Assembly (NCBI GenBank): GCA_025361065.1
Contig: JANYAY010000004.1
Coordinates: 1-35,305, forward strand
Direction of reading: 5' to 3'
Length of the DNA stretch: 35,305 nt
From: Deltaproteobacteria bacterium
Lineage (GTDB): Bacteria; Desulfobacterota; Syntrophia; Syntrophales; Smithellaceae
The notes beneath the pieces were generated by a model. It made no database searches. It saw only the letters and a program-made list of their open reading frames with translations, and had not been told where the DNA came from. The position numbers and the translations under genes were made by a program. Shown one piece after another: positions 142-34,869 of this stretch (positions within the stretch are counted from its first letter, which is position 1; each line of letters opens with the position of its first letter).

Positions 142-175
142 TTTCGTCGGGACGACGTCTGGATGCCGGTTTTCA

Positions 176-194
176 TAACCTGAAGGTTACAAGA
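176..194. repeat. m19 micro-insert
   Basis: A 19-bp unit, TAACCTGAAGGTTACAAGA, interrupts a hairpin that reads GGTTTTCACCGGCATG elsewhere in the window. Removing exactly 19 bp restores the uninterrupted hairpin. It is the reverse complement, with a few substitutions, of the unit at 16290-16308. Confidence 0.65.
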
Positions 195-289
195 CCGGCA
201 TGACGGTGTTGATGGTTTTATCTGCTATTGTGACACGGACTCAAGCGCCGGGTAAACTGTTCACTTTCATGAACTCGCAACGACAGAAT

Positions 290-785: not shown

Positions 786-962
786 GGGCTGTTCAAATAC
801 CCTAATGACCTAAAGGTCACAAGAGGGCACGCGAACGTTCAGATGCAAGGCGCTCGAAAACACGAACCGCGAGGCGTATTTGGATATACGTTGAGCGGTG
901 CGTTTTGCAGCGCAACACAGCAGATGAGCGTTCGCGTGCCCTATAGGGTATTTCAACAGCCC
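786..962. repeat. MR3 element, 177-bp inverted-repeat element
   Basis: The ends are GGGCTGTTCAAATACCCTA and its inverted copy TAGGGTATTTCAACAGCCC. Inside them a second pair of arms, AGGGCACGCGAACG and CGTTCGCGTGCCCT, would allow a long cruciform or RNA hairpin. It stops 29 bp before the start codon of the AspT-type gene, so that gene's promoter lies in or beyond the element. I see no clear target duplication. Confidence 0.7.
806..824. repeat. m19 micro-insert in the left arm of MR3
   Basis: The left arm carries TGACCTAAAGGTCACAAGA, which the right arm lacks. It is the reverse complement of TCTTGTGACCTTTAGGTCA, one substitution from the unit at 16290-16308. This shows the 19-mer occurring in a second repeat family. 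Confidence 0.55.
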
Positions 963-16188: not shown

Positions 16189-16223
16189 GAGACTTTGCAT
16201 AAATCCTTTATACATCATTCCGG
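16189..16223. repeat. MR5 left end
   Basis: GAGACTTTGCATAAATCC followed by CATTCCGG matches the left end and, inverted, the right end of the MR5 element at 34473-34869. No matching right end is visible before the SulP gene, so this copy is truncated. Confidence 0.5.
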
Positions 16224-16260
16224 TCTTGTGACCTCGCGTGACCTTCAGGTTATTAGGTTA
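16224..16260. repeat. m19 inserted in m19
   Basis: The hairpin CATTCCGG|CGAAAGCC is split by 37 bp. The outer parts, TCTTGTGACCT and TTAGGTTA, together make the 19-mer. Between them sits CGCGTGACCTTCAGGTTA, an 18-bp variant of the same unit. The unit has therefore apparently inserted into itself. Confidence 0.55.
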
Positions 16261-16289
16261 CGAAAGCCTATATCCAGATGTCGTCCCGA

Positions 16290-16308
16290 TCTTGTGACCT
16301 TTAGGTTA
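16290..16308. repeat. m19 micro-insert, reference copy
   Basis: TCTTGTGACCTTTAGGTTA lies exactly between CCCGA and CGAAAG. The same hairpin without it (CCCGACGAAAG) occurs at 16482-16492 and elsewhere. Confidence 0.7.
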
Positions 16309-16357
16309 CGAAAGTCGGGAACCAGAACTTATTAATAATAATGGATTCCGGCCTGCC

Positions 16358-16712
16358 AGGATGTGTTACAATAGCAAGAAGCGCTGTAAAAGCAGTCATA
16401 CCGGCGAAAGAGACTGTGTCGCAATAGCAGATAGAACTATCAATAACGTCATGCCGGTGAGAACCGGCATCCAGACGTCGTCCCGACGAAAGAGACTGTG
16501 TCGTAATAGAAATAGTTATATCAACAGCGTCATGCCGATGAAAATCGGCATCCAGAACATACTGATAATACTGGATTCCTGGTCGCGCTTCGCTTGCCCG
16601 GAATGACCAAAAAGTAATTGCGACACAGTCTCGAAAGTCGGGAACCAGATATAACTTTACTGGATACCGGCTTTCGCCGGTATGACAGACATAATAATTA
16701 TGACACAGTCTC
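16358..16712. repeat. triple-nested MR1 elements
   Basis: A decayed MR1 left end at about 16358 leads to GGCGAAA. There a second MR1 element (16410-16712) is inserted after GAAA (16406-16409); its right flank is GAAC. Inside that second element a third copy (16492-16632) is inserted with a perfect GAAA duplication. The 16151-16743 gap otherwise holds only MR5 and m19 fragments and no gene. Confidence 0.75.
16492..16632. repeat. innermost MR1 element, 141 bp, GAAA duplication
   Basis: The ends are GAGACTGTGTCGTAAT and ATTGCGACACAGTCTC, flanked by GAAA at 16488-16491 and 16633-16636. The body has two hairpins, one near CATGCCGATGAAAATCGGC and one near the GGTCGCGCTTCGCTTGCCC stretch. It is nearly identical in plan to 23912-24053. 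Removal restores CCCGACGAAAGTCGGGAACC. Confidence 0.85.
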
Positions 16713-23528: not shown

Positions 23529-24241
23529 AAACGCTCCTTTTTTGATTCTATGAGAGATTCGTATAACTGAATAAAACCAAAAATATTGTCATTCCCGACG
23601 AAGATAACCTTCAGGTAATGCAGGCGGGAACCAGTTCATAGTTACTGGATACCCCCGGCATTCGCCGGTCTTTGGGCCGGAGTAAGACCCGGTGCATGAG
23701 ACTGTGTCGTAATAGCAAAAAGTGCCATTAAAGTCGTCATGCCGGTGAAAACCGGCATCCAGACGTCGTCCCGATCTTGTGACTTTTAGGTTACGAAAGT
23801 CGGGAACCAGTTCAAAGTTACTGGATACCGGCTTTCGCCGGTATGACAGACTTATTAATTGCGACACAGTCTCTTTCGCCGGGCTTTGGGCTGGAGTAAG
23901 ACCCGGTGCATGAGACTGTGTCGTAATAGCAAAAAGTGCCATTAAAGTCGTCATGCCGGTGAAAACCGGCATCCAGAACTTACTGATAATACTGGATTCC
24001 GTGTCGCGCTGCGCTTGCACGGAATGACGAAAAGGTAATTACGATACATTCTCTGCGCCAGCATGAATCATTTTACATATATCAAACATATTGAAAAGAA
24101 CAATAATTATTTCGGCTGGGAATGATGGATTTTCCTGGATACCGGCCTGCGAGACTGTTTCGTAATAGCATATAAACCGTCAACACCGTCATGCCGGTGA
24201 AAGTCGGGATCCAGATATAATTTTACTGGATTCCGGCGTTC
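23529..24241. repeat. repeat block with a 214-bp-offset duplication
   Basis: No gene is supported here. The block contains MR1 elements at 23698-23873 (176 bp) and 23912-24053 (142 bp). The segment 23670-23763 recurs at 23884-23977 with near identity, covering the short region before each element plus the element's first half. Left-over single MR1 ends lie at about 24150. Short reading frames here translate the hairpins (peptides such as RRKPVSS) and are not genes. Confidence 0.7.
23775..23793. repeat. m19 micro-insert
   Basis: TCTTGTGACTTTTAGGTTA lies between CCCGA and CGAAAG, the same junction as at 16290-16308, inside the MR1 element 23698-23873. Confidence 0.65.
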
Positions 24242-24446
24242 GATACTGTATCGCAATTGACAGATGCTGATTGCAGTCTATTCGTAATGTCCCCCGTTGG
24301 CGGGGGCAAGGGGGTGGATGTTTTTTAAGTGGCTGTAATATTAATAAGCTACACATTGGCACTCCTTAGTCCACCTCCGTCACCCCGTGACACCTCCGCC
24401 AGCGGAGGACACGAAATGGCAATTTATCCTATTACGACACAGTCTC
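24242..24446. repeat. MR1 long-variant element, complete 205-bp copy
   Basis: Ends are GATACTGTATCGCAAT and ATTACGACACAGTCTC. It has the same length and body as 30128-30332, including CCCCCGTTGGCGGGGG and CCTCCGCCAGCGGAGG hairpins. The left end carries two substitutions. The flanks (GTTC and TGCG) do not match, so the duplication has decayed or been recombined. Confidence 0.8.
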
Positions 24447-24668
24447 TGCGCCGGTATGACAGACTTATTAATTGTGACACAGTCTCGATAGTTAGATATC
24501 CATTGCAATGTCCGGGAAAATATTTTGTTCTTTAAAATCATATATGATAAAAGAATCCATATTACAACGACACTCGGCGTAATTCTTACCGGGAAACGCT
24601 GATCTGATTTTTTCCCCGGCAGCAAAATACGTCAATCCGGAAGTTCTGTAAGTTATGGTGCAGAAAGA

Positions 24669-33215: not shown

Positions 33216-33676
33216 GGATCTCCCTTCTCTTTCACCTTAAAATAAGACCTTTTAATAACTCCATCATTCGTCATTCCGGCGAAGAGACTGTGTCACAATT
33301 ATTATGTCTGTCATACCGGCCCGGCATGCGCCGGGTCTTACTCCAGCCCAAAGCCCGGCGAATGAGACTGCGTCGCAATTATTATGTCTGTCATACCGGC
33401 GAAAGCCGGTATCCAGTAAAGTTATATCTGGTTCCCGACTTTCGTCGGGACGACGTCTGGATACCGATTCGCGTGCCCTCTCGTGACCTTCAGGTTATCA
33501 GGGTATTCATCGGCATGACGCTGTTGATAGAACTATTTCTATTACGACACAGTCTCTTTCGCCGGAATGACAACATTGAGATATATTGTTGACGGAGTAA
33601 TAGCTGATGCAAGATATCTCCCTTTGGTCGATGTGAAAAAATAGTACTGATATACAACAATACTTCACGGATAAAT
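33216..33676. repeat. repeat block with MR1, MR3-fragment and m19
   Basis: No gene is supported. An MR1 composite runs 33284-33556, with another left end near 33363 (GAGACTGCGTCGCAAT). A piece of MR3 (TTCGCGTGCCC...AGGGTATT, 33469-33509) sits in the loop of an MR1 hairpin. The flanks are GAA and TTTC, not a direct duplication, so two elements have probably recombined. Confidence 0.6.
33479..33497. repeat. m19 micro-insert in an MR3 fragment
   Basis: TCTCGTGACCTTCAGGTTA interrupts GCCC...TCAGGGTATT at the position where the MR3 arm at 786-962 carries the same unit. Confidence 0.55.
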
Positions 33677-34472: not shown

Positions 34473-34869
34473 GAGACCTTGGCAAAACTGCATAAAACAA
34501 CCAAGTATGTCATACCGGCGGAAGCCGGTATCCAGTAACTTTGAGCTGGCTCCCGGCTATTTTAACCTGCTGGTTACAAGTCCGGGACAATCCCTGGATT
34601 CCGGCTTCCTAGACTGTGTCGCAATAGCAAATAAAACCATCAACACCGTCATGCCGGTGAAAACCGGTATCTAGACGTCGTCCCGACGAAAGTCGGGAAC
34701 CAGATATGACAATACTGGATTCCGGGTCGCGCTTCGCTAGCACGGAATGACAAAATGGTAATTACGACACAGTCTCTGCCGCCGGAATGACAATCTTAGC
34801 GGTGTTTTGCCTAATTGCAACACAGTCTCTTTACCGGAATGACGAATAAAGGAGTTATGCAAAGGTCTC
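34473..34869. repeat. MR5 element with nested MR1 copies, perfect 5-bp duplication
   Basis: The ends are GAGACCTTGGCAAAACTGCA and the inverted TGCAAAGGTCTC. GATTG flanks it exactly (34468-34472 and 34870-34874). Inside are MR1 ends at 34611 and 34776 and a further MR1 right end near 34827. It separates the outer-membrane gene from the end of the window and may hold that gene's promoter. Confidence 0.8.
34563..34581. repeat. m19 micro-insert
   Basis: TAACCTGCTGGTTACAAGT interrupts a CCCGG...CCGGG hairpin inside the MR5 element. The orientation is as at 176-194. Confidence 0.55.

Follow-up and report, generated by a model that had tools for sequence, protein, structure and literature searches.

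We describe an 18-bp DNA unit, better put as CNNGTGACC-TTYA-GGTTA with C1 and A18 as its ends, whose mobility is well supported. At several independent sites exactly 18 bp have been inserted without a detectable target duplication, and the insertion often falls within a hairpin loop right after its 5' edge, the unit's own loop included. REPs and the palindromes of organelles have been on record for decades, and the multiplication of single short hairpins is an old question about them. Fixed ends, exact empty sites, covarying sister types, nesting in one direction only and presence in genes and phages make this question testable: which enzyme makes the cuts at both ends, and is the hairpin loop the true target? 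The unit would also be a mobile sequence far below the usual size that can add six codons to a gene in frame.

The consensus of the unit is CTTGTGACCTTTAGGTTA, plus variants. It opens on the 5' side with the tetranucleotide CNNG (mostly CNYG), which is followed by a 5-bp stem with a loop that is mostly TTYA, and it terminates exactly at the base of the stem. The main stem type is TGACC/GGTTA. Two sister types have the stems TGCCC/GGGTA (in full, CGCGTGCCC-TTYA-GGGTA) and CCACC/GGTGG. A preliminary description of the same DNA had rightly noticed a palindrome inside the unit; its arms, given there as AACCT..AGGTT, have to be corrected to GTGACC/GGTTA(C/T) flanking TTYA, and in the main type they contain a G.T wobble. 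The length of 19 bp proposed there is valid as the gain in hosts with a GAAA loop (CCGG^NGAAAN'CCGG and CCCGA^CGAAAGTCGGG), because an extra T, a leading base seen only in such hosts, stands before the unit. In the remaining host types with a readable empty site the gain is 18.

Copies lie where the preliminary description had placed them in the window, that is, the whole stretch of 35,305 nt that was analysed (Table 1). An approximate search of the window gave six matches at three mismatches or fewer, where 100 shuffles lead one to expect 0, and the sequence at 34563-34581 is a decayed copy on the minus strand. The right flank (C/T)GAAA reported for four cases holds as well. Insertion "immediately before GAAA" is too narrow a rule: for the copies at 806 and 33479 the host is the TTYA loop of a sister unit.

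Table 1. Copies of the 18-bp unit, sister units and host hairpins in the window
Feature	Positions	Strand	Remark
18-bp unit CTTGTAACCTTCAGGTTA	176..193	-	extra T at 194; fully Watson-Crick arm variant TAACC/GGTTA
Host hairpin MR1 (GTCATGCCGG^TGAAAACCGGCATCCAG) with unit	159..204	-	uninterrupted form e.g. 23736-23762
Sister unit (CGCGTGCCC..GGGTA arms), split by 18-bp unit	798..833	-	uninterrupted sister at 933-950
18-bp unit CTTGTGACCTTTAGGTCA nested in sister unit	806..823	-	compensated arm pair TGACC/GGTCA
Uninterrupted sister unit CGCGTGCCCTATAGGGTA, loop TATA	933..950	+	
MR1-like host hairpin with nested units	16216..16277	+	
Outer unit CTTGTGACCT[...]TTAGGTTA, split after first loop base	16225..16260	+	nested gain 18
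Inner 18-bp unit CGCGTGACCTTCAGGTTA	16235..16252	+	
Host hairpin MR3 (GTCGTCCCGA^CGAAAGTCGGGAACCAG) with unit	16280..16325	+	empty MR3 at 34677-34703
18-bp unit CTTGTGACCTTTAGGTTA (consensus)	16291..16308	+	
MR3 host hairpin with unit	23765..23810	+	
18-bp unit CTTGTGACTTTTAGGTTA	23776..23793	+	
Reverse MR1 hairpin (TTTC loop) holding sister unit, which holds unit; three levels	33455..33519	+	
Sister unit CGCGTGCCCT[...]TCAGGGTA	33470..33505	+	
Innermost 18-bp unit CTCGTGACCTTCAGGTTA	33480..33497	+	
Decayed unit CTTGTAACCAGCAGGTTA in MR3-like host	34563..34580	-	5 mismatches by eye; beyond the search at three mismatches or fewer

Parts of the window (16400-16700, 23600-24500 and 33260-33560) are intergenic and consist of dense mosaics of further repeats, with gagactgtgtcg modules and several hairpin types.

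The two arms of the unit covary. In a set of units gathered from listed arms in any combination, 97.7% of cells are paired, against 91.2% after shuffling; the covariation score is 0.251 against 0.117, and the signal is lost when the arms are slid against each other. One stem pair occurs as G.T, A-T, G-C and C-G, and the next as A-T and C-G. In a set gathered by pattern only arm combinations are informative. The alignment of 43 distinct units was obtained with a pattern that fixes C1, G4 and CC-TT.A-GG and adds the list of arms, so that its invariant columns prove nothing, and loop and tetranucleotide were recounted with free positions. With both loop and tetranucleotide left free, the fetched DNA (841 kb) contains 129 distinct TGACC/GGTTA contexts; the loop is TTNA in 122 of them and C..G precedes the stem in 120, the first base never being G. 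A mirror-image control pattern gave 3 contexts in the same 841 kb. Since most of this DNA was fetched by unit searches, a free-loop scan of the genome from which the window comes (below, the source genome) is the fairer test of the loop: by hand count, TTNA is present in 57 of 61 GTGACC....GGTTA places among those listed (100 of 108 places). The sister type TGCCC/GGGTA is less strict, with TTNA in just 10 of 15 matches. When CC/GG beside the loop and three further pairs are required, TTYA loops number 73 in DNA of the source genome and 85 in the other fetched stretches, and six control loops occur 0 to 2 times each. The isolated 19-mer has a weak DNA fold (-1.2 kcal/mol), and when two nests were folded their energies were equalled by 19 and 44 of 200 shuffles.

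Covarying arms might also belong to a static functional motif, a protein-binding site or RNA element that is kept by selection and does not move, and a position after a terminator that is common to two genera (L323, L330) would agree with this. As a complete account, such a motif is already contradicted by the exact gains read against empty sites, both orthologous and paralogous, and by the existence of tandem and nested copies; Rfam, too, gives no match within the window at the gathering threshold. We regard it as hardly credible. The protein-binding site mentioned in the preliminary description is possible as a function of the unit, but it leaves the movement unexplained.

The gains themselves can be read in four independent ways: in an orthologous gene, in a phage gene, in host repeats and in units that stand inside units. 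An OmpH-like gene (PF03938, Pfam) contains ATGAA[TAACCTGAAGGTCACACG]AAAGAATATTTA, intact or after drift, in four of four species of the genus. In the homologs from other genera of the family the 18 bp are absent in 14 of the 14 shown, and ATGAA runs into Lys/Arg codons (L299, for example, has ATGAA-AAAGAATATTTA; L306 and L309 were left out of the count). The gain is exactly 18 bp, in frame and without duplication. By parsimony it took place in the ancestor of the genus; it is therefore old and non-polymorphic among the four species. A second pair comes from a Mu-like phage gene (Phage_Mu_F). Between L115 and L116, whose proteins share 80% identity, the difference at GAG^TAAGATC is exactly TAACCTGAAGGTCACAAG, an 18-bp gain over an empty relative. 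Here the insertion restores the stop of the portal gene that lies upstream (Portal_Mu). Its position is ambiguous by TAA, three bases, hence a 15-bp unit with a 3-bp duplication is possible at this one site; at OmpH there is no target-site duplication.

Paralogous repeats provide further pairs. L078 has two tandem copies of one repeat, one filled (TTCCAA[unit]TGCGC) and the other empty (TTCCAA^TGCGC). The host repeat GTATGTACAA^TACGC is known empty, filled in L347 and, in a slightly diverged form, filled in L083. For the prophage copy in L033/L107 the alignment with L195-L199 is unusable and insertion is read from context alone. Two insertions at gene starts, L070:2533 and L032:5932, each lie exactly five bases into the frame (ATGAA^ and ATGAG^). 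One genome per species was compared, those named being metagenome assemblies, and the gains are thus gains between genera, phages and paralogous repeats. These exact pairs of empty and filled sites, in an orthologous gene, in a gene of a phage and among paralogous repeats, support the suggestion that a mobile unit this small enters hairpins, even itself, without target duplication; the unit is not an integral, never polymorphic part of one ancestral repeat.

A loop swap by recombination had also been considered in the preliminary description. In this case the unit would have entered one hairpin once, and the composite would then have spread by recombination or amplification. Such a history agrees with the 19-bp form common to GAAA hosts, with the recurrence of composites such as TCTTGTGACC-TCGCGTGACC, and with a unit-bearing repeat of ~140 bp in the source genome that is missing at the orthologous site of three relatives. 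However, there are 30 context groups to be explained, and the OmpH and phage insertions, which have no flanking repeat, are left without any account. It is quite possible that the 19-bp form was spread by recombination from one GAAA hairpin to another. Alone, a loop swap is already insufficient, and as the explanation of the whole it is quite improbable. The locus of the ~140-bp repeat is L057 ~6973 (C142 of the source genome, near a tRNA-Met gene); this repeat, the first of two, bears the unit, the other is about 127 bp long, and both are missing in G003, G001 and G002.

What does the unit choose as its target? The 137 distinct contexts were reduced to 30 groups by greedy grouping, which was used in place of a single-linkage clustering that over-merged them; the 30 groups include six unverified viral contexts (L215, L219, L222, L244, L272 and L288). 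By eye, the contexts comprise TTYA, TTTC, TTGA and CTTGA loops, so that GAAA is one target among others, and some sites are without an evident hairpin. The site is mostly W^Y: an A or T precedes the unit (position -1) in 26 of the 30 groups, and the base at +1, which can pair with G4, is T or C in 26 as well. This preference is all that was found by way of a fixed target tetranucleotide. Guide pairing between the unit's own tetranucleotide and the target was tried and rejected, as there is no pairing signal (p 0.69). Of the 30 groups, 10 have a stem of at least 6 bp at the joint, compared to 7.6% of random positions, hence hairpin tips are favoured yet dispensable; the stem at the OmpH site is 1. 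In sampled DNA of the source genome 18 GAAA hairpins are filled and 33 empty, and 8 TTTC hairpins are filled and 9 empty, a sample that is biased since this DNA was chosen for its units, and in which the 9 empty TTTC hairpins are on the opposite strand and may recur among the 33.

When a unit receives another unit the gain is 18, between the first and second base of the loop, and nesting reaches four levels in L045:1687. Insert and host have the same orientation in 25 of 25 distinct contexts (seven apparently reverse matches are the other strand of same-orientation nests). As there are 15 distinct pairs of host and insert, nesting is not one copied event. Tandem neighbours are arranged head-to-tail in all 14 cases and never head-to-head, in arrays with an 18-bp period that slippage could lengthen. 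This bias in orientation fits a strand-specific reaction on a single strand. Unbalanced nests with an excess of left or right arm, a form that simple insertion does not yield, occur at L054:6985, L044:2546 and L037:2472.

It is conceivable that no enzyme is involved. A stalled nascent strand could switch template to another hairpin, copy it and return, and tips would then land in loops. The preference for stems at the joint agrees with this, and units are present in genomes that have no match to Y1 transposases or reverse transcriptases; in addition, the organelles of Volvox have nested short palindromes with TTTA loops, whose mobility is unexplained (PMC2670323). Template switching is harder to reconcile with 18-bp boundaries that are identical at the OmpH gene, at the phage gene, in host repeats and inside units. 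No hairpin of another kind has been inserted, though such hairpins abound, and the OmpH site offers a stem of a single pair. We consider the enzyme-free route rather unlikely.

To the reading that we prefer we would give an even chance, namely that the unit is an 18-bp mobile hairpin moved by an enzyme of the HUH/Y1 type and that composites spread later. The inserted form would be a single-stranded hairpin, cut at both ends of the unit and joined into exposed single-stranded DNA. The agent might be a strand-specific transposase that recognizes hairpins and acts in trans, of the HUH/Y1 kind, either TnpA-REP or IS200-like. The combined forms, the 19-bp GAAA form probably among them, would have spread later, through recombination, through tandem growth or because composite hairpins were copied. 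In favour of a HUH enzyme, the unit obeys the TTNA loop rule of the group-3 REP Mb. This REP/REPtron of Marinomonas sp. MWYL1 has a 5-bp stem and a TTTA loop and is a single-strand substrate of TnpA-REP; T, T and A are needed in the loop while the third base is free, and activity falls with stem mismatch (PMC8266576). The unit resembles Mb in its very small size, 5-bp stem, T-T-N-A loop and 5' tetranucleotide. In contrast to Mb, where a GTAG tag and two spacer bases are described and a perfect stem is favoured (same source), CNNG of the unit abuts the stem and a G.T wobble is usual. This wobble weighs against the HUH reading, as do the missing GTAG tag, the lack of a fixed target tetranucleotide and of guide pairing, the looser sister type, the weak fold of the isolated 19-mer and the distribution of Y1 genes given below.

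A more radical version can be suggested tentatively. The 18-nt single-stranded hairpin might itself transpose strand-specifically into hairpin loops, its own included, via undescribed machinery, and possibly on a principle that is common to the nested TTTA palindromes of algal organelles. We see this as possible, though on the doubtful side.

As a simple marker of the unit the Y1 transposase was rejected, since it does not correlate with unit presence. Units occur without a PF01797 match in G004 (1 place), G014 (22) and G016 (8), and a PF01797 match is found in 11 of 16 genomes of other families, all without units (this search was for the Y1 family as a whole and not for a single RAYT group). 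The unit-bearing genomes that lack Y1 could be due to incomplete MAGs or to later loss. Among 25 stretches around Y1 genes, four of which end at contig ends, none has the gene flanked by two units; a unit stands on one side only in L020, L353 and L356. The nearest one seen is at L353:1510 (G008 C57), ~180 bp past the 3' end of a Y1-like gene (1702-2394), and as it is one-sided it is not a REPtron. In the source genome an IS200-like tnpA is directly followed by CCACCTTCAGGTGG (L018:1439-1452), the core of the third unit type. Five of nine related tnpA genes elsewhere have a CC-TTYA-GG hairpin at the stop or within ~10 bases of it (L373, L374, L375, L379, L380), and in L381 it lies ~30 bases past the stop; in L376 and L377 the hairpin after tnpA has a different loop, and L378 has no complete hairpin. 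The CC-TTYA-GG hairpin after tnpA is probably a terminator of that gene rather than an element end.

Retro-insertion is another route by which a short hairpin could multiply. An RNA hairpin or a fragment of tRNA-Met would be reverse transcribed and then inserted. In agreement with this, CTTGTGACCTTCAGGTTA matches tRNA-Met genes of viral contigs, read as their complement, at 17 of 18 positions, CCTGTGACCTTTAGGTTA (the CCTG variant) reaches 17 of 18 with tRNA-Met of G005, G023 and G051 from the same family, and the tRNA bears the same G.T asymmetry. But the best tRNA-Met of the source genome matches the consensus unit at 15 of 18 positions and the CCTG variant at 16 of 18, and no RVT_1 match was obtained in the unit-bearing genomes G001, G008, G014 and G022 (17, 154, 22 and 41 places). 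A resident reverse transcriptase as a requirement was rejected on account of such unit-rich genomes, and we find retro-insertion improbable. The resemblance of the unit's complement to tRNA-Met begins in the anticodon loop and extends to the T stem. Judging by this likeness, a tRNA origin would explain the G.T wobble of the main type, which is a lead and not a result. The unit complement is matched at 17 of 18 positions by a common segment of tRNA-Met in the viral contigs L200-L292, which is apparently an attachment site of phages. By eye, most of 95 viral stretches resemble tRNA-Met genes or attachment sites, and ARAGORN finds tRNA-Met in eight of eight tested. About 15 others (L215, L218, L219, L222, L230, L244-L246, L259, L260, L272, L273, L281, L283, L288) may be due to chance, roughly 20 chance hits being expected.

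A genome-wide search, proposed in the preliminary description, found the unit at 60 places of the source genome (3.95 Mb) at two mismatches or fewer, and a reversed-pattern control at 0. A looser pattern of the arms with a free loop gave 108 places versus 36 in the control. With the first of these patterns (two mismatches or fewer), 39 relatives were searched: the unit is present in 19 of 23 from the same family, with 154 places in G008, and in none of 16 from other families of the order; the reversed control was empty apart from a single place in G014 and another in G018. The exact 18-mer is confined to five of 395 genomes of the phylum, the source genome included. All five belong to the family, a group of uncultured anaerobes of which eight members were sampled, and the other 387 genomes have none. 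In a genome collection, the unit before a GAAA loop is found in named relatives, Syntrophaceae and other deltaproteobacterial MAGs (9 stretches). A plasmid search with 212 bp of the window and a search of phage records with one prophage protein gave no match. At L323:1504 and L330:1504 the unit stands directly after the T-run of a terminator, at the same locus in two genera of the family, hence some copies are old.

We file the unit as a small mobile palindrome that is REP-like. It is placed outside the GTAG and CGTC REPs because their tags are absent. With GTAG REP/RAYT systems it shares the TTNA loop, as in the group-3 REP Mb, a resemblance of sequence only; the differences are that it has no GTAG tag, that in the 25 stretches no Y1 gene lies between two units and that transposase does not track its abundance. 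We found no prior description, and four forms of the 15-bp core are absent from the open-licence literature searched. IS200/IS605 elements insert without target duplication, recognize hairpins and are strand-specific. The unit is like them in being free of a target-site duplication (the phage site being ambiguous by 3 bases) but has no transposase gene, no pair of ends and no fixed target tetranucleotide. Unlike a MITE, it is a single hairpin without terminal inverted repeats and without duplication (none at OmpH). The attC sites of integrons have R'/R'' boxes and a G^TT crossover by IntI.

CGTC-tagged REPs include dRS3 and RPE-4/RPE-6; they are said to be without a dedicated transposase and to be found inside genes (PMC3733652). 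The MR1 host hairpins (CGTCAT..CCGG-GAAA-CCGG..ATCCAG) match that description of the superfamily, whereas the 18-bp unit lacks both the CGTC tag and the CCA tail, which are present around the MR1 hairpins, and has such hairpins among its targets. Volvox organelle DNA has palindromes of 11-79 nt, frequently with TTTA loops, that are inserted in one another, with the plastid motif TCCCCTTTAGGGA (PMC2670323). The nests and the TTTA-type loop are a resemblance, not evidence of common descent; these are algal organelles, and the sections of that report consulted here give no fixed-length unit with exact empty sites. The GC clusters of yeast mitochondria are likewise short mobile palindromes, which merge and shuffle, but they are longer (GC42), and a putative target-site duplication is ascribed to them (PMC4478555). 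Rickettsia palindromic elements are inserted in genes in frame, as is the unit in OmpH and a composite in HypF; they are ~150 bp long compared to 18 bp. The composite hairpin of the hypF gene (L055:279-2720) is in frame, lies towards the C-terminus and includes a decayed unit.
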